Shown here one piece after another: positions 14,396 to 58,815 of a stretch of DNA of 64,000 bases. The DNA lies in the NCBI GenBank assembly GCA_040756055.1, contig JBFLZR010000002.1, positions 274,411-338,410 on the forward strand. Reading direction: 5' to 3'. The first letter of the stretch is position 1. The number at the start of each line of letters is the position of its first letter. A program made the translations under genes and the position numbers. Under the pieces are notes generated by a model. It was not told the origin of the DNA, searched no databases, and worked only from the letters and a program-made list of their open reading frames with translations. The stretch comes from Candidatus Zixiibacteriota bacterium. GTDB taxonomy: Bacteria; Zixibacteria; MSB-5A5; GN15; FEB-12.

Positions 14396-14400
14396 ATGTT
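14342..14400 (+). promoter_or_regulatory. Conserved 5' leader shared with the paralogue
   Basis: This 59-nt segment, including the ribosome site GAAAGGAG and the start codon, aligns without gaps to 18233-18291 upstream of the second paralogue. A short stem (GTTCC at 14345-14349 with GGAAC at 14365-14369) is visible. The second copy can form a similar stem with other pairs. It may be a translation-control element or just a remnant of duplication. Confidence 0.5.
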
Positions 14401-17400
14401 TAGGAGATTCACAACAATTGCCGTTGTCTCCGCCTTGATGATTGCATTCCTGGCGGCGCTAACCTTTGCCGCCCAAAACAAAGGTGATGTCAACAAGGCC
14501 TCACGCCTCGGCCAGACTGACTATATGGCCCAGGCCTACTCTTTTGGCGAACAAAAAAAAACCGGCCTTGAAGCTACCGGCAAAAAAGGCGTGATATCGC
14601 TGGGCGATGTTTCTTACTCCGCTTCCAGCGCCTCACCCGGACAAACGGTCGGCACCAGCTACTATGACTACCAGCACAACTGCTCCATGGGCCGCATGAT
14701 CGAAACCGGCCCGCACTCGGGTGTCACCGGCCCGGCGGTGGTCCATTTCAGCTGGATGTACATGGCTTCTGCCGACGACCTCGGCCAGGCGCGATCCTAC
14801 GCCTACAACGCCTATAGCACGGCTACCCACCAATACGCCGGTGCACACATTCTCCACGACGACGAATACTCCGGCTACGTCAACATCGACGTCACTCCGG
14901 ACAACCGCGGTATCGTCGGCGGTCACACCGATGTTCACGGCCCGGTAAAATACCAGGCCCAGATGCACTTCGATGACTGCTCGACATGCGAAGACTTCGC
15001 GGCCTTCTCCCGCATCCCCGACAGTCTGGCTGCCTACGATCAGGAAGGCGACCTGGAAGCCATGTGGCCCAAGTTCCTCTTCCAGTTCGGTACCGACACC
15101 GTACTTCACGTCATTACCCACAACTGGGATTACTACGGCGCTCAGATGTATTTCCGATGCGTAGGCTACGAAGGTCAGGGCGTGTGGGATTACCCGCCGT
15201 ATGTCGTGGATACCAACCAGTGTATGGCCCACGACCTCACCGGCCCGCGCGTCGGTGACAAGGTCGGCCTGGCCTGGCTGGCCAGTCCCCCTTATCAGGA
15301 ACCATGGTGTGATACCTGCTCCGGACTGACCGTCTACGATGGTCTCCTCGCCGGTCAGTATGACAACGATGTCTACATCCAGATATCCGACGACCAGGGT
15401 GTTACCTGGCAACCCAAGAAAAATCTCACACAGCTGCAAATCGGAGAACCCGGATACAGAGCCTACTGCGATCTCTCAGTCGTGTTTGACAGCGACGAAA
15501 ACCTGCACGTCGTCTGGAACGGCACCCCCTGGCCCGCCGACACCTGTATCGACGCCGGCGGCCTGTGCTTCACCGAAGACTGGTGGCTGGATCCGGCAAG
15601 AATCTTCCACTGGTCCGAGAATATGCCCTACGTCCGCACCGTGCACGATGCCACTTGGCTGCCAAGCGATAGTTGCGGCCCACCGCACTTCTGGTCGGTC
15701 CAGGTTGCCAAAATGTCCATCTCCGAATGTAATGGCCGTCTCTACTGCCTCTTCACTCAGTTCAACGATGTCCCTGGCGGCGTCGATGACGACTGCGCCC
15801 AGTGGGGATATGACCAGAATAGATGGCCCGGTCCGGCTAACGGCGACTTGTGGATGTGCATCTCGGCCGATGGCGGCATGACTTGGGACGCCGCCCGTAA
15901 CCTGACCAACTCCTACACCCCACACTGCGACCCGCTCCTCGGCGAAGTCTGTCAGAGCGATTACTGGGCCTCCATGACACGCTGGGGACGGCAGGTACAA
16001 ACCGGTGAAGATTGGTCCGCCGCTGAAATCGTCGACCCCTCGGGCGGTACCTCCCCCACCGATTACTACCTCGACGTCCAATACGTCAATGACCTCGACG
16101 CCGGCACACCCATCTGGGGTGACCCTGACGCCGAAGGCTCATGGACCAACAATCCCATCAAGTGGTTCCGCGTACCATGCGTCGAAGAAATCCGCCTCTG
16201 TAACCCGGTCTTCTCCCCGCGTCAAATTGATGATCCGGCCTGGACCAAACCCGGCGTGCAATTCGATACCGCTATCGTAGTTGAGAACATCGGTAACGCC
16301 GACTATACCTACTCCATCAGCGTCGAAGAAGACAACGGTACTCCCGGATGGCTGGGCGTGGGCAGTTATTCCGGAAGCATCCCCTCCGGACTCGGCAACA
16401 CCGAAACCGTGGAGATATCTCTCAACAACGGCGGTGTTCAAACCGAACAGATCGAGTTGATCGGAAGAGTTCTCTTCAACGGTAATCATCCCAGTTCACC
16501 GCATATCATCCCTATCAACTTCTTCGTCGTCGACACCATGATCTGGCCGAGTTTCGACACCGTCCACACCAACTGTCTCGCGTTGATCTGCGGCAACAAC
16601 GGCAATATCGGTCACGATGGCACCCCCGGTGTCACCATGGATTACATCCGTTCGGCTGACTGTGATCCCGAGGCGGTCAACTATATGTATGATGGCTCAG
16701 CCCTGGTCGGCTGGATTGACGGTACCGACACCATCTTCAATTATGCCATCTGGGGCGCTTTCTTCACTTCTGATGACTGCTTCCGTCCTCAGGGCGGCCG
16801 CATCAACACCACCGAGTGTCTACCCCTGAACGCCGAGGTCTACCACTCCGGCGTTTTCAGCACTCAGGACTCGACCATTGCCCTTGAGAAGGTAGTCGTG
16901 GCTCCTCTGGATAATTGCCCGTTCATCATCGAGTACCTGCGGGTTTATTCTTTCGACGGTCTGGCCCACACCGGTCTCATGATCGGAGAAGCCATCGACT
17001 GGGATATTCCGTATGACTACCGAGATGACGACACAGCCGCAGCCACCTGGGATGTCTGCAACTACGGTGGAGCCGACCCCGTCAGGGCTCTGCTTTACCA
17101 GCAGGGCTACGAGGCTACCTGGGATGATGGAGTCGAGGGTGAGGATTGTCAGGAGAACTCGGATCGCTTCGGCGGCAGTGCCTTTATCGAGTCCTATTTC
17201 AACGGCAGTTTCGCTGCCGGCGGACCTTACAGCGGCTTCGTCGGTGAAAACGATTCTCTTCAGACGGCGACCGGATTCTACGCCGGCAGGCTGTATTATG
17301 ATCTGGCCCAGTCCGGTTTCACGGCCACCGACTCAATCGAGGACTTGCACACGGCCATGTGTTTCACCCCCTCGCTCGATCTCGGCGCCACCGATTACTA

Positions 17401-17767
17401 CGAGGTGGTGACGGTCCTGGCTACGGTTCACGAGGGTACCCTGGCTGACCTGCAGGCAAACATCGATGCCGGCAAGGCCTGGTACACCGCCAACGGCGGC
17501 ATGACCATATTTGCCGATGTCAACCGCGACGGCGGTATTGACCTTTGCGAAAGCTGCTGTCAGATTATGGGTGACCTCAATGACGACGGCTACCTTGACC
17601 CGCTGGATATCACCTTCTTCGTGAACTGGCTGTGGAAGGGTGGTCCGTCACCGATATGCGAAGACGTAGTTGATGTCAACTGTGATCTGGCTGCTGATCC
17701 GCTGGATCTGACTTATCTGGTCAACTATGTCTGGAAGGGCGGCCCGCCACCTTGCGGCTGCCATTGA
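14396..17767 (+). CDS. Secreted Asp-box (sialidase-fold) protein with C-terminal dockerin-like repeats, paralogue 1
   Basis: A 1123-residue protein with a signal peptide (TTIAVVSALMIAFLAALTFAA). The first ~600 residues contain Asp-box motifs of sialidase-type propellers (SDDQGVTW and SADGGMTWD). Around residues 605-715 an Ig-like/BACON-type domain is suggested by VVENIGNADYTYSISV. The C-terminus carries two dockerin-like EF-hand units: DLNDDGYLDPLDI with canonical calcium ligands, then a poorer DVNCDLAADPLDL, each followed by a VNWLWKGG or VNYVWKGG tail. No sialidase Arg triad is evident and the protein is Cys-rich, so a binding or surface role is as likely as catalysis. Start at ATG 14396, 6 nt after GAAAGGAG. 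It is very similar to the protein at 18287 along its whole length. Confidence 0.85.
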   Translation: MFRRFTTIAVVSALMIAFLAALTFAAQNKGDVNKASRLGQTDYMAQAYSFGEQKKTGLEATGKKGVISLGDVSYSASSASPGQTVGTSYYDYQHNCSMGRMIETGPHSGVTGPAVVHFSWMYMASADDLGQARSYAYNAYSTATHQYAGAHILHDDEYSGYVNIDVTPDNRGIVGGHTDVHGPVKYQAQMHFDDCSTCEDFAAFSRIPDSLAAYDQEGDLEAMWPKFLFQFGTDTVLHVITHNWDYYGAQMYFRCVGYEGQGVWDYPPYVVDTNQCMAHDLTGPRVGDKVGLAWLASPPYQEPWCDTCSGLTVYDGLLAGQYDNDVYIQISDDQGVTWQPKKNLTQLQIGEPGYRAYCDLSVVFDSDENLHVVWNGTPWPADTCIDAGGLCFTEDWWLDPARIFHWSENMPYVRTVHDATWLPSDSCGPPHFWSVQVAKMSISECNGRLYCLFTQFNDVPGGVDDDCAQWGYDQNRWPGPANGDLWMCISADGGMTWDAARNLTNSYTPHCDPLLGEVCQSDYWASMTRWGRQVQTGEDWSAAEIVDPSGGTSPTDYYLDVQYVNDLDAGTPIWGDPDAEGSWTNNPIKWFRVPCVEEIRLCNPVFSPRQIDDPAWTKPGVQFDTAIVVENIGNADYTYSISVEEDNGTPGWLGVGSYSGSIPSGLGNTETVEISLNNGGVQTEQIELIGRVLFNGNHPSSPHIIPINFFVVDTMIWPSFDTVHTNCLALICGNNGNIGHDGTPGVTMDYIRSADCDPEAVNYMYDGSALVGWIDGTDTIFNYAIWGAFFTSDDCFRPQGGRINTTECLPLNAEVYHSGVFSTQDSTIALEKVVVAPLDNCPFIIEYLRVYSFDGLAHTGLMIGEAIDWDIPYDYRDDDTAAATWDVCNYGGADPVRALLYQQGYEATWDDGVEGEDCQENSDRFGGSAFIESYFNGSFAAGGPYSGFVGENDSLQTATGFYAGRLYYDLAQSGFTATDSIEDLHTAMCFTPSLDLGATDYYEVVTVLATVHEGTLADLQANIDAGKAWYTANGGMTIFADVNRDGGIDLCESCCQIMGDLNDDGYLDPLDITFFVNWLWKGGPSPICEDVVDVNCDLAADPLDLTYLVNYVWKGGPPPCGCH

Positions 17768-18232: not shown

Positions 18233-18291
18233 ACAGTTCCGCGAGGAGCTCGTTGCGAACACTTTTACTCTCGAAAGGAGCGATGAATGTT
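18233..18291 (+). promoter_or_regulatory. Conserved 5' leader, second copy
   Basis: It aligns without gaps over 59 nt to 14342-14400. The ribosome site GAAAGGAG is identical, and the loop region between the stem arms has diverged most. Substitutions change both arms of the predicted short stem, so pairing is kept in a shifted form (GTT/AAC plus CGC/GCG). Confidence 0.5.
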
Positions 18292-21200
18292 AGGTAGAGT
18301 TACAACCATCCTGGTTGTCTCCGTGCTCGTAGTTGCCGTTATGGCAATGACAGCATTTGCGGCCCAGACAGCGGCCAAAGGCAAAGCATTCAAGAAAATG
18401 AGAGGCGCTCAGGCTTATTCCTTCGACGATGGTCATGGGATGAGCCAACCTAACGGCGAACAGAGAGGTCATAGTACCCTCGGAACAGTCCAGTATTTCT
18501 CCTCGTCCGCATCGCCAGGGAGAATCGTTGGCGGTACCGTCTATGAGTACCAGCACAACTGTTCCATGGGACGAATGATCGAGACCGGACCGCATTCCGG
18601 AATCACCGGCCCGGCAACAGTGCACTTCGGCTGGATGTACATGGCTACAGCCGAAGACTTCAACCACTACCGATCCTACGCCTACAACGCCTACAGCACC
18701 GCCAACCACCAGTACGCCGGGGAATATGTCCTACATGAAGACCCCTATTCAGGCTACGTCAACGTGGATGTAACGCCCGATAACCGTGGTATCGTCGGTG
18801 GCCATACCGATCTCCACAGTTCCATACCGTATCAGCCGCAGATTCACTTTGACGCCTGTTCGGCTTGCGAAGACTTCGCCGCCTTCGTGCGTGTCCCCGA
18901 TTCTGTCGCGGGTTACCCGGCAGAAGCAGCTGAAACCTCCTGGCCGAAATTCTTCTTCCAGTTCGGATCCGATACCGTACTTCACATAGCTGCTATGGAA
19001 GACGCCGGACGCCTCTATATGAAGTATTTCAGGTGCGTTGGCTATGAGGGCGTGGGCACATGGGACTATCCCCCCTATGTCATCGACACGGTCGAAGATA
19101 TCGCTCAAGATATCACCGGTGAGAGACTCGGTGACCGCGTCTGTATGTCGTGGTTCGCCTGCCCGCCATATCAAGAACCATGGTGCGATACCTGCTCCGG
19201 ACTGCCTACCCCCGGATACGATGGTACCGGATGGGCTCAGATGGACAACGATATATACATCCAGACTTCCGATGATCAGGGCGTAACGTGGAATCCCCGA
19301 CAGAACATAACCAACGTGGGGCCCTATGGCGAACCCGCCTGGAAAGCCTATTGTGATGCTTCCATCCTGTTTGACCAATCCGGTTATCTCCACCTCATTT
19401 GGCACGGATGCCCGTGGCCGGCTGACCCGGAACTCGACGCCATATTCGAGGAAGATTGGGACCAGGTCGAAGCCCGTCTGTTCCACTGGTCCGAAAACGT
19501 ACCGTACATCCGTACTATCGCGGACCACAACTACTCGTCCGGCGATAGCTGCGGACCTCCGATCTGGGGTATTAACGTCGCCAAGATGACTCTATCTGAA
19601 TGTGACGGTAAACTCTATGCCCTCTTCACCCAATTTAACGACATCCCGAACAATGTCGAAAACGACTGCGCCGAATGGGGTTATCCCGATGTCTACTGGG
19701 GCGCCGCTAATGGCGACCTCTGGGTGTCCATATCCTCCGACGGCGGTATGACGTGGGATGCCCAACGTAACCTGACCAACTCCTACAGCCCCCATTGCGA
19801 CCCCGTAGCTGGCGAAGACTGCCAGAACGACTACTGGGCCTCAATGGTACGCTGGGGACGTCAGGTGCAAACCGGTGAGGACTGGTCCGCCGCCGAAATC
19901 GTCGACCCGTCCGGCGGGGCATCTCCGACCGACTTTTACCTCGACATCCAGTATGTAAACGATATCGACGCTGGCGGTGCCGTACAGGACGAAGGCACCT
20001 GGCAGTACTGCCCGATCAAATGGTTCCGCATGCCGTGTGTTGAGCCCGTCGCCGCGCCGCTGGCTATTTTCACTCCTACCAGGTACGGCGATCCGGCCTG
20101 GGGTCACCCCGGTGAGCAGGTCGACTCGTTCATCACAATCGAAAACGCCGGTAACATGGAACTCAACTGGACCGCCACGGTCGAAGAATACAACGGCGCT
20201 GCCGGTTGGCTGCGAATGGGAAGCTACGCCGGCACCATCCCCTCGGGCATGGGCAACGTTGCCACGGCCGAAGTCATCTTCAACTATGGTGGCGCCCAGA
20301 CCGAACACATCGTGCTCGAAGGTGCTCTGGTTTTCAACGGTAACGATCCGAAATTACCTAAGACCATACCGGTTAGTTTCATAGTCACCGACACCGTCCA
20401 ACCTCCCGTTTTCGACACCGTTCACACCGATTGTCTGGCCCTGATGGTGTCGTCGACCGGGAATATGGGTAACAGCGGCCGGGCCGGAGTTACAATGGAC
20501 TACATCAGATCCGGTGACTGCGATCCCAACGCTACCAATTACCTGTACGACGGTTCTCCCGTCATTGGGTGGATTAACGATGGCGACACGGCCTTCAACT
20601 GGGCCATTTGGGACGCCACCTGGCTTAACGACAAAGGCTTCCGCCCACAGTACGGCGAACTGCCGACCAAAACTTGTGAGCCCCTCAATGCCGAGGTGTT
20701 CCACTCCGGTATATTCACAACACACGACACCACGATCGCATTCGAGAAAATCTCCGTCGCTCCGCTGGATGACTGTCCATTCGTCCTGCAGTATATGAAA
20801 GTATACTCGTTTGACGGCAATGCTCATTCCGGCCTCATGATCGGCGAAGGAATCGACTGGGATATCCCGTGGGATTACCACGACGATGATCCCGAAGGCG
20901 ATGTCTGGACCGTGTGCAACTATGGCGGCTTTGATGTCACCAGAAGCCTCGTGTACCAACAGGGATATGAGGCATCCTGGGATAACGGCGATCCTGATGC
21001 CGACTGTCAGAGAAACGATGCTCGCTTTGGCGGCAACGCCTTTGTTGAATCATACTTCAACGGCGCTCACGCCGCCAGCGTCCCCTACAGCGGTTTTGTC
21101 CAGGAAAACGAACTGCTGCAGAGTGTCGATGGCTTCATAGCTGGTCTCTTTTACCAGGAGATGATGAATCCGGGCTTGTCCGCCACCGACTCTATTGAAG

Positions 21201-21625
21201 ACCTGCACTCGGCCATGTGCTTCACACCCTCGCTGGACCTCGGCGCCACCGACTACTACGAGGTTGTGACGGTTCTGGCCACAGTACATGAAGGCGATCT
21301 TGGGGATCTGCTGGCCGCCGTTGACGCCGGCAAGGCCTGGTACACCGCCAACGGCGGCATGACCATGTTTGCCGATGTCGATGGCGAAAACGGAATCGAC
21401 GTATGCGGGTTCTGCTGCGAAATCATGGGCGACCTCAACGACGATAAGTATCTCGACCCGCTGGATATCACCTTCTTCGTGAACTGGCTGTGGAAGGGTG
21501 GCCCGCCACCGCCTTGCGAAGACCAGGTCGATGTTAACGGCGATGGAGCCGATGACCCGCTCGATCTTACCCATCTTGTAAACTATGTTTGGAAAGGCGG
21601 CCCACCACCGGTGCCATGTCAATGA
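18287..21625 (+). CDS. Secreted Asp-box (sialidase-fold) protein with C-terminal dockerin-like repeats, paralogue 2
   Basis: A 1112-residue paralogue of the preceding protein with the same order: signal peptide, N-terminal Asp-box region (SDDQGVTWNPRQN, SSDGGMTWDAQRN), BACON/Ig-like domain (ENAGNMELNWTATVEEYNG), a conserved middle block (CDPNATNYLYDGSPVIGW) and two dockerin-like units. Here the second unit keeps better calcium ligands (DVNGDGADDPLDL) than in paralogue 1. No cohesin gene lies in the window, so the dockerin-like tails may serve surface attachment or only structure. It begins at ATG 18287, 6 nt after GAAAGGAG, and is followed by two hairpins. Confidence 0.85.
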   Translation: MLGRVTTILVVSVLVVAVMAMTAFAAQTAAKGKAFKKMRGAQAYSFDDGHGMSQPNGEQRGHSTLGTVQYFSSSASPGRIVGGTVYEYQHNCSMGRMIETGPHSGITGPATVHFGWMYMATAEDFNHYRSYAYNAYSTANHQYAGEYVLHEDPYSGYVNVDVTPDNRGIVGGHTDLHSSIPYQPQIHFDACSACEDFAAFVRVPDSVAGYPAEAAETSWPKFFFQFGSDTVLHIAAMEDAGRLYMKYFRCVGYEGVGTWDYPPYVIDTVEDIAQDITGERLGDRVCMSWFACPPYQEPWCDTCSGLPTPGYDGTGWAQMDNDIYIQTSDDQGVTWNPRQNITNVGPYGEPAWKAYCDASILFDQSGYLHLIWHGCPWPADPELDAIFEEDWDQVEARLFHWSENVPYIRTIADHNYSSGDSCGPPIWGINVAKMTLSECDGKLYALFTQFNDIPNNVENDCAEWGYPDVYWGAANGDLWVSISSDGGMTWDAQRNLTNSYSPHCDPVAGEDCQNDYWASMVRWGRQVQTGEDWSAAEIVDPSGGASPTDFYLDIQYVNDIDAGGAVQDEGTWQYCPIKWFRMPCVEPVAAPLAIFTPTRYGDPAWGHPGEQVDSFITIENAGNMELNWTATVEEYNGAAGWLRMGSYAGTIPSGMGNVATAEVIFNYGGAQTEHIVLEGALVFNGNDPKLPKTIPVSFIVTDTVQPPVFDTVHTDCLALMVSSTGNMGNSGRAGVTMDYIRSGDCDPNATNYLYDGSPVIGWINDGDTAFNWAIWDATWLNDKGFRPQYGELPTKTCEPLNAEVFHSGIFTTHDTTIAFEKISVAPLDDCPFVLQYMKVYSFDGNAHSGLMIGEGIDWDIPWDYHDDDPEGDVWTVCNYGGFDVTRSLVYQQGYEASWDNGDPDADCQRNDARFGGNAFVESYFNGAHAASVPYSGFVQENELLQSVDGFIAGLFYQEMMNPGLSATDSIEDLHSAMCFTPSLDLGATDYYEVVTVLATVHEGDLGDLLAAVDAGKAWYTANGGMTMFADVDGENGIDVCGFCCEIMGDLNDDKYLDPLDITFFVNWLWKGGPPPPCEDQVDVNGDGADDPLDLTHLVNYVWKGGPPPVPCQ

Positions 21626-31474: not shown

Positions 31475-31495
31475 CTACGAAAAAATCCTCCTCAT

Positions 31496-31610
31496 ACACC
31501 CCTCACAATCCCTCCCCGCCTTATCGTTACACTGATTTGGCTTCGTTTCGATATTTTCATCATCCCCCTCACCCCAACCCTCCCCCGAAGGGCGAGGGAG
31601 AAAGAGGCGT
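31496..31610. repeat. 115-bp imperfect repeat, copy 1
   Basis: It begins ACACCCCTCACAATCCC and ends GAAGGGCGAGGGAG plus AAAGAGG. It is repeated in the same direction at 31829-31944 with few changes. A partial inverted copy (the tgatttggcttcgtttcgat part and onward) is at 36628-36690 on the other side of the island. Confidence 0.75.
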
Positions 31611-31626
31611 GATGTCGCGTTTCGTG

Positions 31627-31650
31627 CTGTCAGGTGTCCCCACCTGACAG
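31627..31650. repeat. CTGTCAGGTG hairpin, founding member of a covarying family
   Basis: CTGTCAGGTG and CACCTGACAG form a 10-bp stem around TCCC. Relatives are 31951-31993 (same stem, enlarged loop), 32134-32157 (CTGTCAGACG / CGTCTGACGG, loop TCCT) and 32236-32259 (one G-U pair). All are preceded by CGTG and most followed by CTACC. Confidence 0.8.
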
Positions 31651-31828
31651 CCGCAGGGAGAAAGAGGTGTGATGTTGCGTTTGATGAATCAAACGCCTAC
31701 CATCCACGCAACGATTCTTGTAGGGAAGGATCCCTGCCCGGCAAAAGCCGGGGCGCTGTTTAGCTGCGCGATCCTGCCATCTTCTCCCCGGTGCCCCATC
31801 CGCTTGCGGTGGGAATTGACTCCTCAAA

Positions 31829-31944
31829 ACACCCCTCACAATCCCCTCCCACCGTTATCGTTACACGCATTTGGCTTAGTTTCGATATTTTCATCATCCC
31901 CCTCACCCCAACCCTCTCCCGAAGGGCGAGGGAGGAAGAGGTGT
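31829..31944. repeat. 115-bp imperfect repeat, copy 2
   Basis: Direct repeat of 31496-31610. Confidence 0.75.
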
Positions 31945-32432
31945 TTCGTGCTGTCAGGTGCCTGCCCGCCGATGGAGGGTCCCCACCTGACGGCTACCTC
32001 TCGTTTGATAGTACAATTGGCTTTGTTTTGTTATTTTTATGGGTTCCCGAAAACGCGCTTTTCCCTTCCAACTGATTTTGATTTAACCGCTTGACGCTCT
32101 TTTTTGGTGCAATTTAGTGTCATCATTTTCGTGCTGTCAGACGTCCTCGTCTGACGGCTACCTTTCACCCGTGCGCGGGGTGCCCCGCAGCTTGCTGTGG
32201 GAACGGTGGCTCCACCTGCAACCTTCGATTTCGTGCTGTCGGGTGTCCCCACCTGACAGCTACCTTTGGTTTGTGCGCGGTCCCGCGCTTCGCGGGATCC
32301 CCCATCTGCCCGTCCTGACGTTTTCTTTTTAGAAGACATAATCCCTCCTGTAATGTGACGTTCCACCGGGCACCTCGTCATTCCTCCTCCTAGCCACCCC
32401 CGCCTTTTACAGTCCCCCCGCCCTCTTAGTCA

Positions 32433-32500
32433 CCCCCGCGAAAGCGGGGGCCCAGTCAGACGCGGACCACAGGTCGCGTCATTCCGTCGAAGGACGGAAT
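32433..32500. repeat. Two GTCA-stem-GAAR-stem-CCAG elements with different stems
   Basis: 32433-32450 has stem CCCCCGC / GCGGGGG with loop GAAA. 32481-32500 has stem ATTCCGTC / GACGGAAT with loop GAAG. Both are preceded by GTCA and followed by CCAG. An inverted copy of the first is at 36503-36520. Confidence 0.75.
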
Positions 32501-32530
32501 CCAGAAACCCGACGGACCACACAAACTCGT

Positions 32531-32576
32531 TCCGTTGGGTCTTGATTTCCGCTTGCGGAAATTGTGACCCGACGGA
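32531..32576. repeat. Two-tier hairpin element
   Basis: The outer stem TCCGTTGGGTC / GACCCGACGGA encloses an inner stem ATTTCCGC-TT-GCGGAAAT. Related elements at 36577-36621 (inverted) and 57649-57692 keep both stems with altered bases. It lies next to the 3' end of the island operon. Confidence 0.75.
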
Positions 32577-32716
32577 CCACCTTTGTTATGATTGCTCTAT
32601 TACAGGAAGCCCGGATGCATTTTGCTATGATGTTGTAGGGAAAATGTGGGGGGGAATAGATTTTGTCCTCTCATGGTGTGGCTAGGGAACCAGGCACAAG
32701 CATCGAGGAACTGAAA

Positions 32717-33592
32717 TCACATCGGTGGTATGCGCAATGGAGTAATCACAAGCTCACGGGCTCTTCTCTGCGCATTTGAATTGACCGAGTATGGCATTGA
32801 GACATTGACTTTCACACAGTTGCCAGTATACATCCGCCTAATCTGCGGGGCATCATCGTAGCTTAGCAGCCAAGGATGTTTAAGTTTACTTACGGCCTTG
32901 TACAACGCTCTGTGCTCCTGCTCCCGAAACCAGAAACGGTACAAGCTCTCGGCTTTGTCAAAGAACGGAGGGTCCAAATAGAAGAACATGGACTCTGCCT
33001 TCTTCTTCGCCTTACATAATGACAAGACGTAACTCAATGTGTCTCTCCAACCCAATGGGAGCACTGTTACCTTCTCTGATAGCGCAGCTACTGTCTTGAT
33101 CCGAGAGATCAATTTTTCGCGATTAAAGCGGCAGTCTATTTTGTACTCACTTTTTTGTTCCTTGCCGCCAATAGGGCCTGCTTTGTCTGTAAGTAGGCCG
33201 GAGAAGCTCGTCCTATTCAGGAACAGGCAGGCTTTCGCCAATTCAACTTCGCAGACATCACCGGTGCTCCGGGCAATCTCTTTGAATCTGTAAAAGTTAT
33301 CTTCGTCTATCCTGACACGCCCAATAAACCGTGTCAGTTTTTGGTGTTGAGTGAAAACGACATTCCAGAAAGAGTAAATTAGCGGGTCAATATCTGCAAG
33401 AATTACACGGCTGACGGCCTTGTTTGCTAGAAGGTGCAATGATACGTTCGCGCTTCCTGCAAACGGTTCGACTAACACCGGTCGCAACAGCCCGTTGTGC
33501 GACAGCAGCCGATAAACAAAGGGCACAAGGCTCTTCTTTGATCCTGGATATCTTAGCGGGCTCAGGTCCGTAAGCTTAATCGCGCGTTCCAT
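32717..33592 (-). CDS. D12-class (Dam-like) N6-adenine DNA methyltransferase
   Basis: A 291-residue methyltransferase with the D12 order: N-terminal LSPLRYPGSKKSLVPFV, AdoMet motif I VLVEPFAGSANVSLHLL, acidic loop LADIDPLIY, and catalytic motif FYLDPPFF (DPPF instead of DPPY). It should methylate adenine in a short site. The site is unknown. It is the last gene of a three-gene operon, 5 bp after the HD-domain gene, with palindromic repeats right behind. As no restriction enzyme is linked in the classical way, it may protect self DNA from the other two proteins or mark the target. Confidence 0.88.
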   Translation of the reverse strand: MERAIKLTDLSPLRYPGSKKSLVPFVYRLLSHNGLLRPVLVEPFAGSANVSLHLLANKAVSRVILADIDPLIYSFWNVVFTQHQKLTRFIGRVRIDEDNFYRFKEIARSTGDVCEVELAKACLFLNRTSFSGLLTDKAGPIGGKEQKSEYKIDCRFNREKLISRIKTVAALSEKVTVLPLGWRDTLSYVLSLCKAKKKAESMFFYLDPPFFDKAESLYRFWFREQEHRALYKAVSKLKHPWLLSYDDAPQIRRMYTGNCVKVNVSMPYSVNSNAQRRARELVITPLRIPPM

Positions 33593-33597
33593 TTAAC

Positions 33598-35166
33598 CTA
33601 TGCCGACAACTCGAGCGGAATAATAAATGTAACACCGTTCATCTCGAAGAAAGATAAGGCACCGCTCAATTCTTTCAAAAGTCTTTTTTTGACCGAAGCG
33701 CTGAGCCCTTGATCGGAGAGTTGGGCGCGGATACCACCATCGCTTACCACAACACCAGCAAAAATGTCGGGTCTATCGAATATGGCGGATTTCGTACGCC
33801 TGTCCTCTTGAATGATGTCCACATATGTTAACAGAAGCGAGAAACCGAAATGCTGTGCCTTGACCGGATTGATTTGATTCTCTATCATGTGCGACCTAAC
33901 CTGGTAATCGTGCAGCAAGATCGATACCCCGGCCAGCAGTACATGTCGGTAAAGAAATTCGCGGTCATCGTCCTCATCGATTTGTTTCAATAGATGTCTG
34001 ACAAGTTGTGCCATCTTGATGGCCCCCGCTGCGCCATGTGAGCCGAGTTCAACAAACGCTGTCTTCAACGTCGCTCTGAAAGGCGTCAAACCATCCGGAC
34101 TAGAGTATTTCTCAAGCTTGAATGCATCCCAACGCCATCGACCGGTCTTGCCACTATAAAGGTGACCAAACAAGTCCTCTATCACAGTAGTAGCGAGGCC
34201 GGTCGTCTCCTCTTCCCAAAAATACTGCCTTAGCGCTTTGGTTTGTTGGGCGAGGGTATCGCTGACGTCTTCTTGCGCCATCGCGAATACTTTTTCGGTT
34301 ATCTTCTCAAAGTTGGCCACAGGATATCCGATGTCGTGATATAGGGAAATTAGTAGCCACAAGAATTCGATGTCGATATCCTCACCGAGAGTCCCGCCCA
34401 ACGATAGAAAGCGATCATACGCACTATCAATAACTAAATAGCCGATAAGCATTGTGTTGAAGGCATGGTAGTAGTGATCTCTTATTTCGATACCAGACCC
34501 ACTTAGAAGAGACTCAATTTCTCCCATAAAATCAATCGGACTGCACTGCAGCTGAAATCGGGGGTCACAATTCAACAGATCCTTGATGAATTGCTTGATA
34601 GTTTTATCCTCCTCCTGTTTGTCCAAGTGTTCCAAATACTCTGTGCAGAACTTGCGAATCAAGTCCCCGATGGGGCCGCGCAAGCGCTTCGCTTCACTCA
34701 GAGCAAGAACGACGGCCGGCAACAATCTTCGATCCTTGTTAAGTGCCTCAGCAACCGTTGAAAAGACCCTAGCAGAACCGCCGTCCAATCGATGCAGAAC
34801 TCCGGACTTCGCAGTCTCCGGATGACTTTTAAGGAACTCCAAATCTTCATCTGCATCTGTAAGAAAGTACAGAATGGGCTGCTTTTTCCCTTTTTTCAGA
34901 ATCTCTATAGTGGCTGTGATTCTTTCCGCCAACTCATTCAGCTCGGAGAGATCAGCATAATCCTCCCTGCGGAACCGCTCGAAGATAAACACGTGTTTGT
35001 CGGATTCGGCCGCATATGTGGGACACCACGCCAGAGTTGGTTTACTATGCATGCCCGAGAGTGTGTCGCGCAGGTATGAATAGGCATCTGCCTCCAGCAT
35101 AGCTCCGTCGAACTCGACACCAGACATGGCCTGTATAATTTCTCTAAATGATTTCATATTTCTCAC
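33598..35166 (-). CDS. 522-aa HD-domain protein, middle gene of the ParB-HD-Dam operon
   Basis: I do not recognise the full-length family. Residues about 225-455 look like a metal-dependent HD phosphohydrolase: H231/H234 in RDHYYHAF, the HD pair H277-D278 in SLYHDIGYP, then H377 (GSHGAAGA), H408, H419-D420 (ILLHDYQ) and D450 in LLLTYVDIIQ. The N-terminal ~150 residues hold a possible alpha/beta domain (PILYFLTDADEDLEFL). The C-terminus (about 465-522) is a small beta domain. The start GTG 35166 overlaps the stop of the ParB gene (GTGA); ATG 35157 is the alternative. Cleavage of nucleotides, cyclic nucleotides or nucleic acid is possible for such domains. Confidence 0.72.
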   Translation of the reverse strand: MRNMKSFREIIQAMSGVEFDGAMLEADAYSYLRDTLSGMHSKPTLAWCPTYAAESDKHVFIFERFRREDYADLSELNELAERITATIEILKKGKKQPILYFLTDADEDLEFLKSHPETAKSGVLHRLDGGSARVFSTVAEALNKDRRLLPAVVLALSEAKRLRGPIGDLIRKFCTEYLEHLDKQEEDKTIKQFIKDLLNCDPRFQLQCSPIDFMGEIESLLSGSGIEIRDHYYHAFNTMLIGYLVIDSAYDRFLSLGGTLGEDIDIEFLWLLISLYHDIGYPVANFEKITEKVFAMAQEDVSDTLAQQTKALRQYFWEEETTGLATTVIEDLFGHLYSGKTGRWRWDAFKLEKYSSPDGLTPFRATLKTAFVELGSHGAAGAIKMAQLVRHLLKQIDEDDDREFLYRHVLLAGVSILLHDYQVRSHMIENQINPVKAQHFGFSLLLTYVDIIQEDRRTKSAIFDRPDIFAGVVVSDGGIRAQLSDQGLSASVKKRLLKELSGALSFFEMNGVTFIIPLELSA

Positions 35167-36191
35167 TTCTCAAGCAACGGGCGGAGCTCTCTTTCAAGTC
35201 TTTGAAGTACCTCAAGTAGCTGGCTGAAAGCCGCGATAAATTCCTTCTTTTCAGCTGCCGTTGTAGACTCGAATAACGAGAAGTCGTAGTCGCCCAAAGC
35301 AACGGAGGTACGAAGCATTCTGTTTATGAGGCTTTTTCGGGTATGTCTTGGACTCTTTTCGGCTTCTGGAAAACGCGCCAAGAATTCGTCCCTCGCATCG
35401 TCAAAGGAGTACGTCTTCTCTTTCACCAATTTTTCCAAGACCTGTCGAGCGAATTTGTATTGTCTGGGGTCATCATCGGTGGTGTTCACAATAGCCTTCA
35501 TCTTTCTGGCATCTGTACCGGCGTGCACTACACCCTCCTGGTATTTTTCAAAGAGAAACTCTCTGACAGCGTCGCTTGACACCTTATCGAAGTAGTCCGG
35601 AAAGTTCTTGGAGGCTGGCTGTATTATGCCCTTTTCAATTTCAACTATTGTCCAGTAGAAATCCTGATTACCATCATATACATGCTTCTTTATGTCCTTT
35701 GGCCATTTGAGAAAGAGCAATCGATCATTCATAGTTCGGATGTGTGTGCCTGTAAGTTCGGCAAGTCTCTTAGCAATTGCTTTGTAATCGCCCCCAAGCT
35801 CTCGGTTCAAGTCTTCATACGCTTCTTCAACGGCATGGCACTGTTGAACAGCTCCCCATTGGACGCGATTTGTATGAATGTGGAACATAAGATTTTTCGC
35901 CTCTGCCAAACTCGATTCGTGTGGCAATACGTGAGCGGGAGCTTCATTTACTCCGGCTCGCTTGAGAGCCCAGTATCGGCGCTCGCCATCCAAGAGCACG
36001 AACTTGATTCTTCCTTTAGGCTTGGGTTTTTTCATGACGATAAGTGGAACCAAAAGTCCGTACTTCCTAATCGACTTTTCCAACTGTGATAAATCGGGGT
36101 CATCTTCTAGGATATTGATCCCACGCGGGTTTTCGGGATTAGGTTCTATCGAAGAGACTTCAATAACGCTGAGGCTTTTGGGTTCTTTCAT
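35163..36191 (-). CDS. ParB N-terminal-domain protein, first gene of the island operon
   Basis: A 342-residue protein. Residues about 8-95 are a ParB/Srx-type domain (IEPNPENPRG, then KYGLLVPLIVMKK, then FVLLDGERRYWALKRAG with the GERR box). A helical part follows (residues about 115-190) that could be a helix-turn-helix (LAELTGTHIRTMNDRLLFL), as in ParB and Noc. The C-terminus is charged and helical. There is no ParA gene, and the linked genes are an HD protein and a DNA methyltransferase, so a chromosome-segregation role is unlikely. DNA recognition for a modification or defence module is more plausible. It begins at ATG 36191, with overlapping coupling to the next gene. Confidence 0.8.
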   Translation of the reverse strand: MKEPKSLSVIEVSSIEPNPENPRGINILEDDPDLSQLEKSIRKYGLLVPLIVMKKPKPKGRIKFVLLDGERRYWALKRAGVNEAPAHVLPHESSLAEAKNLMFHIHTNRVQWGAVQQCHAVEEAYEDLNRELGGDYKAIAKRLAELTGTHIRTMNDRLLFLKWPKDIKKHVYDGNQDFYWTIVEIEKGIIQPASKNFPDYFDKVSSDAVREFLFEKYQEGVVHAGTDARKMKAIVNTTDDDPRQYKFARQVLEKLVKEKTYSFDDARDEFLARFPEAEKSPRHTRKSLINRMLRTSVALGDYDFSLFESTTAAEKKEFIAAFSQLLEVLQRLERELRPLLEK

Positions 36192-36784
36192 ATACCACTC
36201 CCCTGCAGATTATTCGGCGGAGTTTTCGGTTGAGTCCAGTTAAATGACCCAGAAAAAGAGTCACTCAACAAATGCGACTACTAACATGTTATCAGCCGAG
36301 AAGCCGTAACTGTTTTCTTCACCCAGCTACTGATGTCACCATGTCCACATCGGAAGCAATAATAGCAGCCGGGCTATTCATTTGCTTAAGCGCTAAAGAT
36401 ACCAATCTGCCAAGTACTTGTCAAAGACAATATGGACGACAGTGTCTACTGGCGGTTTTCATACAAGATCAATGGTGATTGGTTGGGGGTGGGGGGAAGA
36501 GAGGCCCCCGCTTTCGCGGGGGTGACTAATAAAAGGGGGGTGACTAAGAAAGGGGTCCTTCCCTACAAAAGAGGAGTCCGTCAGGTCACAATTCCGCGCT
36601 GCGAAATCAAGACCCGACGGAACATTGTGTGAAAATATCGAAACGAAGCCAAATCCTGGTAAGGGGATGAAGGGTATGGGGTTGGGGGGATTTTTTACGG
36701 GCAGACGAGGGCGTCTGCCGCGCACAAAGTCAAATCCCACCGCAAGCGGATGGGGCACCGAAGAGGAATCAATGACAGGAAAAA
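36192..36784. other. 593-bp non-coding region with inverted palindromic elements
   Basis: Right edge of the island. After ~280 bp upstream of the ParB-domain gene with no clear consensus promoter, it holds the CCCCCGC hairpin (36503-36520), the two-tier hairpin (36577-36621), a piece of the 115-bp repeat (36628-36690), GGCAGACG / CGTCTGCC (36700-36719) and a CCCA...TGGG element (36736-36754). Most are inverted relative to their relatives at 31.2-32.6 kb. Confidence 0.75.
36577..36621. repeat. Two-tier hairpin element, inverted copy
   Basis: TCCGTCAGGTC pairs with GACCCGACGGA (G-U/A-C tolerant), enclosing ATTCCGC / GCGAAAT. It is the inverted relative of 32531-32576. Confidence 0.7.
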
Positions 36785-52334: not shown

Positions 52335-53471
52335 TCAGCACAGCTCTTCGTACATTTTGATGGCGAAGCGGTCGGTCATGCCGGCGATATAATCCGCGAT
52401 GACAATCTCGGCGTCCTCGGTGAGAAGCATCTCCTGAAAACGCGGCGGCATAAGCGTTGTCTCCCCTTTGATTCTCGCGAAAATGCACTCGATTATCTTG
52501 CGCGCCCACTCGGACATCCCCACCAGATTGGAGTGCTTGTACAAACTGCGATTGAGAAAATCTTTCAGTTCGGACACGGTCCTTGCGGTCGACTCAGAGT
52601 AGGCGCACAACTTCTCTTTGGCCGAACGAACATCGGACAAACTGCCAATGCTGTTGCGATCAATGCGCCGCTGCGTCTCATTGGCGACATCGGTGACCAT
52701 CAAATCCAGAAGTCTCCGGACCAGCGCATAGCGGCTCTTGTCATCGGATGGTGATGCTTTCGCGAGCGTTTGTTTCAGGCCGAGCTGGTCCATAAACACG
52801 GTACGATCGAGGTCCTCGAACGTGAGAATCCCCGATGACAACCCGTCATCGATATCGTGCGCGTTGTAGGCGATTTCATCGGCGATATCCACCAGCGATG
52901 CCTCCAGCGTGGGCTTCTCCTGCGGGTTGAATTCGGGGAGCCTTATCTGCACTTTGGTCTCGTGCTTGACAATCCCCTCGCGGACCTCATAAGTAAGATT
53001 CAGTCCGGGATGTTCATCGTAGCGTTGTTCGAGAATATCGACTACTCGAAGCGACTGACGGTTGTGGTTGAACCCGCCGTTGTCTTTCAGCAGGTCATTG
53101 AGGACATCCTCGCCCGAATGCCCGAAAGGGGTGTGCCCCAGATCGTGCACCAGCGCGATAGCCTCGGCGAGGTCTTCGTTCAAACGAAGAATGCGCGCCA
53201 TCGTGCGGCTAATCTGCGCGACCTCGATAGTGTGTGTCAGGCGGGTGCGGAAATGATCCCGGTCGTGCGGAATAAACACCTGCGTTTTGTATTCCATGCG
53301 GCGGAAGGCGGAGGAATGGATAATCCGGTCGCGGTCGCGCTGGAATGCCGTGCGCAGGGGGTGTTCGTCGAGCGGATAGGCCCGCCCGCGTGAACGCGAT
53401 GACAACGCGGCGTAGGGAGCCAGCATCTGCTGCTCTCTGGTTTCGATATCTTTTCTGGTCAGGCCGGCCAT
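52335..53471 (-). CDS. Deoxyguanosinetriphosphate triphosphohydrolase-like HD protein
   Basis: 378 residues from ATG 53471 (a GTG lies two codons earlier). The HD-domain motif series is clear: FRRMEYKTQVFIPHDRDHFRTRLTH, ALVHDLGHTPFGHSGEDVL with the HD pair, FNHNRQSLRVVD, and VDIADEIAYNAHDIDDG with the late Asp. It should cleave dNTPs to nucleoside and triphosphate, controlling pools. The short type without an insert fits bacterial dGTPase-like proteins. It is the last gene after the surface cluster, 12 bp behind it, which looks like simple transcriptional read-through. Confidence 0.9.
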   Translation of the reverse strand: MAGLTRKDIETREQQMLAPYAALSSRSRGRAYPLDEHPLRTAFQRDRDRIIHSSAFRRMEYKTQVFIPHDRDHFRTRLTHTIEVAQISRTMARILRLNEDLAEAIALVHDLGHTPFGHSGEDVLNDLLKDNGGFNHNRQSLRVVDILEQRYDEHPGLNLTYEVREGIVKHETKVQIRLPEFNPQEKPTLEASLVDIADEIAYNAHDIDDGLSSGILTFEDLDRTVFMDQLGLKQTLAKASPSDDKSRYALVRRLLDLMVTDVANETQRRIDRNSIGSLSDVRSAKEKLCAYSESTARTVSELKDFLNRSLYKHSNLVGMSEWARKIIECIFARIKGETTLMPPRFQEMLLTEDAEIVIADYIAGMTDRFAIKMYEELC

Positions 53472-53483
53472 GCGCACGCCTTG

Positions 53484-57627: not shown

Positions 57628-57648
57628 CGGGGAATTTTGTATCTATGT

Positions 57649-57692
57649 TCCGTCAGGTCCTGATTTCGCGTAGCGGAATTGTGACCTGACGG
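57649..57692. repeat. Two-tier hairpin element, third copy
   Basis: TCCGTCAGGTC pairs with GACCTGACGG and encloses ATTTCGC / GCGGAAT. Compared with 32531-32576 the outer stem changed on both sides (GGGTC/GACCC versus AGGTC/GACCT). Confidence 0.75.
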
Positions 57693-57709
57693 CTCGCAAT
57701 TCTGTGCGC

Positions 57710-57762
57710 GGCAGATGTCCCCATCTGCCCGATTCTGTGCGCGGCAGATGTCCCCATCTGCC
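57710..57762. repeat. Two GGCAGATG hairpin elements in tandem
   Basis: Each is GGCAGATG-TCCC-CATCTGCC, preceded by TGTGCGC and followed by CGATTC. The inverted form, with loop GGGA, is at 58692-58711. A variant with GGCAGACG / CGTCTGCC is at 36700-36719. Confidence 0.8.
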
Positions 57763-57815
57763 CGATTCCGGGTGGCAGGCTCAAACTTGCTTTGGGCCTG
57801 ATGAAAGCAACGGAA

Positions 57816-57849
57816 TTGGTAGGCTCACGCCGCGGCGTGAGCCTACCAA
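57816..57849. repeat. 34-bp perfect palindrome
   Basis: TTGGTAGGCTCACGCCG is followed directly by its reverse complement. No loop is present, so it could form a cruciform or be the fused ends of two elements. Confidence 0.85.
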
Positions 57850-57960
57850 CGTGCCTGCATCCGATAGAAGATAGTCTGAGTAGCGATTTTGACAGGATTT
57901 GTGCGGAAAATGTAGACCCACCTGACGCTGACGCTTTAGGTGGGGTACCGTACCGGTGCT

Positions 57961-58006
57961 GTTTTCACGCTGGTTAATTATAGACAAATCCGTCGCTGAA
58001 GGCAAG
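57961..58006. repeat. 46-bp exact direct repeat, copy 2
   Basis: Second copy of 57582-57627. It carries a GTGAAAAC start-like piece on the minus strand but no continuing gene. Confidence 0.9.
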
Positions 58007-58247
58007 TGGGGATTTGGGGGGCTGTTGGAGCTGGATCACATGGTCGGCGTCGTTGTTGGTCGTAAGCGCATGATATTTCACGCGATACAGGGGCGGGAAT
58101 CGCCCGGATCACGCAAGGCGGTATTGCCACGGTACTGAAACCTCGAACATCTGCCGATAGAACATTAATGGGAGGATTTGTGGTCCGACCGCATCTGGGA
58201 GCAAGCAGCAATTCACATAATTTTCGATTATTTACACTGGAGTTGAG

Positions 58248-58676
58248 ATGAAATACAAAGATGAAGTAACCACGCTGCCGGCGATACTCTGCGCGGTCGG
58301 CATCGTGCTCACCCTGGCTATCGGGCGGTTTCCAAGTGCCATGACAGGTTTTGTGAATTCCGCTATCCTGTGGATACTCGGCATAGTCTGGGGCGCGGCG
58401 GCCGTTCTGACCTGCGTCAGATGTTTCCGGCAGAAGTGGCCGTTTAAGAAAGCATTCCTCGGTTCGTTTCTCTATCTGGTGGTGCCGGTGTTCTGGTTCT
58501 GGTTCACCTATGCCTATTTCTGGAAAACGCCGCCGACAACGATCGGTGAATTTGGAGAGATCGTGCTGGTAGCCCTCGCGTGGACGCTCACCATGACCCT
58601 GCCGGCGTCGCTGTTTCTATCATTGTCTTATGTCTTGATTCGCAAAGACTCAACCGGCGAGGTTGAATCGGCCTGA
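58248..58676 (+). CDS. Small four-helix membrane protein, function unknown
   Basis: 142 residues with four predicted membrane segments: LPAILCAVGIVLTLAIG, SAILWILGIVWGAAAVLTC, FLGSFLYLVVPVFWFWFTY and LVALAWTLTMTLPASLFLSL. There is no recognised family. It stands alone between two repeat-rich regions, with a weak upstream GGAGTTG site. Confidence 0.65.
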   Translation: MKYKDEVTTLPAILCAVGIVLTLAIGRFPSAMTGFVNSAILWILGIVWGAAAVLTCVRCFRQKWPFKKAFLGSFLYLVVPVFWFWFTYAYFWKTPPTTIGEFGEIVLVALAWTLTMTLPASLFLSLSYVLIRKDSTGEVESA

Positions 58677-58691
58677 GATAATATGGGAATC

Positions 58692-58792
58692 GGCAGATGG
58701 GGACATCTGCCGGGCACGGATTGGCGGGCGGACATCTGCCGGCCACGGAATCGGCTTGAGACAAATATGGCGGGTTCTAAGAAGGACCCGCC
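58692..58792. repeat. Palindromic elements between the membrane gene and the sigma-54 activator
   Basis: 58692-58711 is GGCAGATG-GGGA-CATCTGCC. A decayed second copy follows at about 58723-58741. 58769-58792 is GGCGGGT...ACCCGCC with the CTACGAA tail. Confidence 0.75.
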
Positions 58793-58815
58793 CTACGAAC
58801 GCGGTACGATAATAT

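Follow-up and report, generated by a model that had tools for sequence, protein, structure and literature searches.

We analysed a stretch of 64,000 nucleotides (nt), hereafter the window, from contig JBFLZR010000002.1 (positions 274,411 to 338,410; assembly GCA_040756055.1) of a Candidatus Zixiibacteriota bacterium (phylum Zixibacteria, host genome ~3.3 Mb), in which three adjacent genes encode a ParB-fold protein, an HD-type protein and a D12-class DNA methyltransferase. All three genes of this unit lie on the minus strand, spanning 36191-32717, and are intact, with no internal stops (Table 1). An earlier note on this DNA had described three overlapping or nearly touching genes without ParA, and the open reading frames (ORFs) bear this out: the ParB stop codon overlaps the start of the HD gene, an arrangement that suggests translational coupling, and a gap of 5 nt separates the HD gene from the methyltransferase gene. 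No parA ORF occurs in the unit, and the genes flanking that of the ParB are the HD gene and nnr.

Table 1. Coordinates of the unit, of the repeats beside it and of two related operons (window positions unless a locus, L, is named; aa, amino acids)
Feature	Position	Strand	Details
ParB-fold protein	36191-35163	-	342 aa; ParB_N match, DGERR Box II, divergent Box III
HD-type protein, putative effector	35166-33598	-	522 aa; GTG start, ATG at codon 4
D12-class N6-adenine DNA methyltransferase	33592-32717	-	291 aa; DPPF motif
4-nt overlap, ParB stop / HD GTG start	35163-35166	-	equal overlap in the SM1_73 pair
Left cluster of dispersed palindromic repeats	31488-32577		neighbourhood, outside the system
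Right cluster, same repeat classes, inverted orientation	36503-36760		neighbourhood, outside the system
G124 operon, ParB + nuclease-like + methyltransferase	L042 4014-7093
G023 operon, ParB + nuclease-like + methyltransferase	L040 3922-7554

A ParB-fold protein with an altered Box III

The ParB of the unit matches Pfam ParB_N at 1.3e-11, above the cut-off, and consists of an N-terminal region with CTPase fold and helix-turn-helix (HTH; about residues 10-172) followed by a C-terminal region to which no fold was assigned. Its family profile matches solved ParB/Noc/Spo0J structures (7bnk at 9.2e-20 over residues 10-171; Noc 7nfu at 2.3e-18), and no PADLOC model matched the protein up to an E-value of 1. 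Within the phylum, 114 of 129 genomes had a match to a three-row ParB profile, nearly all with scores typical of ordinary chromosomal ParBs. Four proteins were set apart by score, the window ParB and those of genomes SM1_73, G015 and G111, and viral contig IMGVR_UViG_2585427803_000009 contributed a fifth. Another 12 stretches of the phylum with ParB copies yielded no new member. The ParB hits in plasmids and phages were incomplete, most of them bearing names of partition-type proteins, and four viral matches (L115-L118) were rejected as members, since they look like ordinary phage ParBs.

Glu and Asn of Box III form part of the CTPase site of the ParB fold. When all sequences were aligned to one profile (rows L065 and L079, shifted or gapped, were read by eye), 25 of the 26 chromosomal ParBs of the phylum carried ENxxR at Box III, the remaining one (L065) reading LNIQR, and GERR was kept in all. 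The five set-apart ParBs are unlike these segregation ParBs because I/V-H replaces the Glu-Asn pair in every one of them (IHTNR, IHMNQ, IHNVR, IHALR and VHMLR), with a Trp three places on in each; the window protein reads IHTNRVQW in full. Its Box II, DGERR, may resemble the DGQHR motif of the DndB/DpdB group. The three boxes of the fold are named in the available text of PMC12704722, which counts binders of CTP, ATP or GTP among ParB folds, and nucleotide binding by the altered proteins may persist with other chemistry.

Related ParBs with differing effector and modifier candidates

The ParB and HD proteins recur together in SM1_73, a Zixibacteria genome of the same class, both at full length and with the same overlap (345 and 506 aa; 31% and 27% identity, respectively). 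In the HD protein, an N-terminal region without assigned fold (about 1-180) precedes an HD-type region (about 225-460), and the SM1_73 homologue retains every one of the residues H231, H234, H277-D278, H377, H419-D420 and D450. Because the Pfam HD score stays below its cut-off, the HD assignment rests on these residues, the invariance of which upholds the full HD residue set that the earlier note had read in the 522-residue protein. No match to the HD protein was found in PADLOC, PHROGs or PDB sequences, and no protein of the unit matched a nuclease family in Pfam, NCBIfam or PADLOC. Among 132 phylum genomes, the HD search matched the window and SM1_73 and, weakly and over the domain alone, a protein of G037, so that the full-length protein occurs in one of 131 other genomes (SM1_73); in species-level genome contigs, the single-protein query returned nothing and the alignment query SM1_73 only. 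These scans depend on short conserved peptides or BLAST-level similarity, and distant relatives may escape them. The G037 protein, which has a GAF-HD arrangement and no plasmid matches, was rejected as a family member, as its alignment is confined to the R.H..H / HD.G.P part (E 5.7e-9, a single comparison); its gene (803 aa) overlaps a Nudix-like gene that is followed by a HAD-like gene, the group lying at L105 3525-7280. The window itself encodes a dGTPase-family HD protein (52335-53477; PADLOC dGTPase 2.2e-91), to which the HD protein of the unit shows no significant similarity (BLASTP E 0.34).

While the ParB-HD linkage persists in SM1_73, the third gene changes: in the place of the methyltransferase, and with a 4-nt overlap, stands a gene for a B12-binding/radical-SAM protein (Pfam 5.7e-4 and 7.4e-5, both below cut-off). 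A protein 38% identical to it, which passes the Pfam Radical_SAM cut-off, is encoded in G111 by a gene overlapped by that of a C-terminally extended ParB (479 aa). The effector position varies as well. In G015, the order is D12 methyltransferase, ParB and a 275-aa protein with RNLVDH, and on the viral contig it is D12 methyltransferase, ParB and a 292-aa protein with RNTASH, followed by an integrase-like ORF; both methyltransferases belong to subfamilies other than that of the window enzyme. A candidate DNA modifier is thus adjacent to, or one gene away from, each of the five set-apart ParBs (three methyltransferases, two radical-SAM proteins). The HEPN label that we use for the G015 and viral-contig effectors rests on the RNxxxH conserved in the two sequences, neither of which has a HEPN match in Pfam or PADLOC. 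A search for them found nothing in plasmids or further viral contigs and, in the phylum, only G015 itself plus a marginal match in G107 (7.5e-4), a non-member by context.

Downstream of the SM1_73 genes lie an MNT-like gene (PADLOC PDC-S09, 1.4e-14) and a small ORF, HEPN-like by eye. A B12/radical-SAM gene overlaps a ParB or ParB-like ORF three times, at L003 4528-5592 (SM1_73), L084 3860-4969 (G111) and L101 5001-6185 (G070), the last sitting just ahead of terminase-like genes. At L098, a ParB-motif ORF lies ~0.6 kb from the radical-SAM match on the opposite strand. The association outside SM1_73, G111 and L101 is weakened because the matches at L099, L100, L102, L103 and L104 have no ParB-motif ORF marked in their vicinity.

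The methyltransferase of the unit, called Dam-like and adenine-specific in the earlier note, does carry the expected signature: it matches Pfam MethyltransfD12 at 2.5e-18, above the cut-off, and its nearest solved sequence is the adenine-specific methyltransferase 7m6b (1.7e-10). Its best PADLOC family is PD-Lambda-5_B (PDLC04018; 1e-79, 265.9 bits), followed by MTase_II (3.9e-65, 218.1 bits). The PD-Lambda-5_B model matches 34 of 129 phylum genomes and 3 of 14 control genomes, reaching at least 145 bits at ten places only, and methyltransferases of this family are also phage-borne. In a tree of 21 sequences, for which the program warned of long branches that join elsewhere in the tree, the window enzyme groups with that of G124 (51% identity, support 100/99).

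PD-Lambda-5 is described in the available text of PMC9519451 as a two-gene anti-phage system that a functional selection in E. coli brought to light. As judged from its sequences, it is a pair of a ParB-like protein and a methyltransferase, two PD-Lambda-5_A-type ORFs giving weak ParB_N matches (0.018 and 0.0058). Neither the ParB nor the HD protein of the window matches PD-Lambda-5_A in PADLOC up to an E-value of 1; A partners from Vibrio maritimus and Kosakonia plasmids match it at 7e-190 and 7.3e-174, and the A partner of such a methyltransferase in a Vibrio phage is likewise a strong match. A profile of two PD-Lambda-5_A sequences found a matching ORF in 8 of the 18 phylum methyltransferase neighbourhoods fetched. 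In six of these it is a protein of 433-490 aa adjoining the methyltransferase, as in PD-Lambda-5; in the other two (G124 and G023) it is a shorter ParB (361 and 366 aa), followed by a separate protein of 318 or 309 aa. At their N-termini, these two ParBs are PD-Lambda-5_A matches (1.7e-18 and 6.1e-23), and the window's ParB family profile matches the G124 ParB with 67.7% probability (E 4.9e-5), over the ParB fold itself. The 318- and 309-aa proteins are related to each other (BLASTP 4e-13), have no Pfam match above cut-off and no PADLOC model, and are presumably nuclease-like, to go by a D..AW / QC..G..W pattern that we take as the sign of such proteins. Furthermore, one His and one Trp after Box II are invariant in the PD-Lambda-5_A rows, as they are in the set-apart ParBs, with different spacing, and this pair is a possible link between the two groups.

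Genomic setting

The unit has a guanine-plus-cytosine (GC) content of 0.474 against a mean of 0.533 (standard deviation 0.022), ranking 7th of 606 among all windows of 3475 nt, in keeping with the greater AT-richness that the earlier note had judged by eye. Its neighbours, also assigned by eye, are housekeeping genes (speD-like, lysA/ODC-like, speE, nnr and lon), among which no other phage genes were seen. The palindromic repeats noted on both sides, between housekeeping genes, are present, and further dispersed copies occur in the window at 57645-58799. They do not, however, indicate the mobile setting proposed for them: one 101-nt repeat unit has 19 matches spread across the genome, and we rejected the flanking palindromes as ends of an element because such repeats are dispersed genome-wide.

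The full-length HD protein is absent from all three congeners searched (G001-G003). G001 and G003 keep the lon-nnr order, but their genes downstream of nnr differ from those of the window and speE is not there, so that a clean empty site could not be demonstrated; in G002, no nnr was detected. The low GC content, the absence from three congeners and the patchy distribution would fit lateral transfer.

Elsewhere in the window, two adjacent genes (14396-17767 and 18287-21625) encode long proteins of secreted appearance (1123 and 1112 aa), whose N-termini resemble each other and which are probably tandem paralogues. In the single-contig genome G074, contig 1 (L123, L124) holds two parAB regions that resemble each other, neighbours included, at a distance of 0.9 Mb, which may point to a mixed assembly.

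Interpretation and comparison with known systems

Our preferred explanation, which we judge somewhat more probable than all others together, is a compact anti-phage module of restriction-modification or abortive type whose methyltransferase ties it to PD-Lambda-5. The D12 enzyme would mark host DNA by N6-adenine methylation, and the ParB-fold protein would be a switch, binding DNA and, in a rebuilt pocket, nucleotides, that discriminates marked from unmarked or invading DNA and recruits or releases its partner. That partner, the HD protein, would be the effector, a putative metal-dependent nuclease or nucleotide phosphohydrolase hitting DNA or the nucleotide pool. The simplest account is a PD-Lambda-5-like module that would divide between the ParB and a separate HD effector what PD-Lambda-5 combines in its A protein. 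The best reading of the five neighbourhoods is that ParB, effector and modifier have been exchanged among modular relatives. The earlier note's proposal of an anti-phage module thereby gains a methyltransferase family of a tested system and a set of relatives with the ParB-effector-modifier plan, including one from a viral contig that bears an integrase; it loses the mobile setting drawn from the palindromes and the enrichment in defence islands.

Several results weigh against this explanation. The unit lies outside any defence island, with housekeeping genes as neighbours, and the exact ParB/HD/methyltransferase triplet was found nowhere else in the genomes and collections searched, so that of the conservation looked for by the earlier note, the strict triplet fails and the ParB-HD pair (SM1_73) and three-part layout stand. 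Relatives of the HD protein were not found in plasmids, phages (tblastn) or viral contigs, unlike most mobile defence effectors, and its Pfam HD match (E 0.023) scores 15.4 bits against a cut-off of 22. AlphaFold2 models are poor (predicted local distance difference test, pLDDT, 41.9 for the whole HD protein and 43.8 for the HD part), probably for want of homologues, and their Foldseek matches (best E 0.35, helical proteins) were discarded as showing no meaningful fold. An N-terminal domain shared by the HD and RNxxxH effectors, suspected by eye, found no support (hhalign E 0.54 and 0.23). The ParB family profile also matches ordinary ParBs of the phylum, and ParB-methyltransferase pairs occur in phages without proven defence.

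A broader version, which we put forward tentatively, is a modular immune family built around a ParB-fold switch whose nucleotide pocket is rebuilt, in which the parts for killing (HD, RNxxxH HEPN-like or a fused extension at the C-terminus) and for marking (D12 methyltransferase or B12 radical-SAM) are both swapped. The B12/radical-SAM family could be a DNA-modifying enzyme and, if the broader version is true, would write a DNA mark in place of N6-methyladenine; standing where a DNA methyltransferase is otherwise found, it would, if real, mean an unusual mark.

Among the alternatives to defence, a module for modification or regulation is unlikely, yet the one that fares best: a leftover of a prophage or element whose ParB and methyltransferase act on element DNA by methylation or regulation (for anti-restriction or lysogeny control) and whose HD protein is accessory. 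The phage-borne methyltransferases of this family would suit it, as would the enrichment of ParB-methyltransferase fusions in prophages given in the available text of PMC12704722, the ParB relative beside an integrase and, in the terminase-bearing region L101, the radical-SAM relative whose gene overlaps a ParB-like ORF. It sits less well with the lack of other phage genes seen around the unit and with the recurrence of RNase- or nuclease-looking third genes, and PD-Lambda-5, with this methyltransferase family, does defend according to the part of PMC9519451 available. We are also doubtful that the HD protein hydrolyses a nucleoside triphosphate or signal nucleotide controlling the ParB switch, the pair then being a nucleotide-gated regulator or a nucleotide-depleting defence to which the methyltransferase is loosely tied. 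The persistence of the ParB-HD linkage would agree with this, and with Box III Glu-Asn lost in a fold that binds CTP, ATP or GTP (PMC12704722, available text), hydrolysis could occur in trans; the HD protein is, however, unlike the window's dGTPase, and its substrate is only putative. That the unit is what remains of a partition or addiction locus from a plasmid, as the ParB fold with HTH and the low GC content might suggest, is very improbable given the missing parA, a Box III unlike that of 25 of 26 partition-type ParBs of the phylum and the modification genes adjoining related ParBs.

Measured against known systems, the window ParB shares its fold and HTH with chromosomal ParB and Noc, but the unit has no parA and the ParB has lost the Box III Glu-Asn. 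DndB and DpdB systems likewise place a ParB-superfamily protein next to a DNA-modifying enzyme in the available texts of PMC10853773 and PMC12839542, whereas no dnd or dpd genes were seen at the unit. With type II restriction-modification, the unit has a DNA methyltransferase in common. No published description of this gene set was found in the literature searched, which did not extend to bioRxiv and most subscription papers. The G124 and G023 operons share the three-part layout, and the methyltransferase of G124 is the closest relative of the window enzyme; they differ in that their ParBs are PD-Lambda-5_A-like at the N-terminus and their effector is of another family. PD-Lambda-5 itself resembles the unit in the family of its methyltransferase, in the ParB-like N-terminus of the partner and in the invariant His and Trp after Box II, but its Box II reads EGNRR or DGNRR where the window ParB has DGERR, and in the window a separate HD gene stands between ParB and methyltransferase. 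We have not filed the unit as PD-Lambda-5 because the A component is unmatched, and the earlier note's statement that no named system has this set is half right, since PD-Lambda-5 is itself a ParB-like protein plus methyltransferase. Both the ParB and the HD protein fall in rare families without a name, and the unit looks like a new relative of a known type of phage defence and not like a wholly new one. ParBs whose Box III is changed and which stand beside DNA-modifying enzymes can now be named as a subfamily, and PD-Lambda-5, a tested system of obscure mechanism, is tied to three-gene relatives in which the putative sensor, effector and modifier are separately testable.

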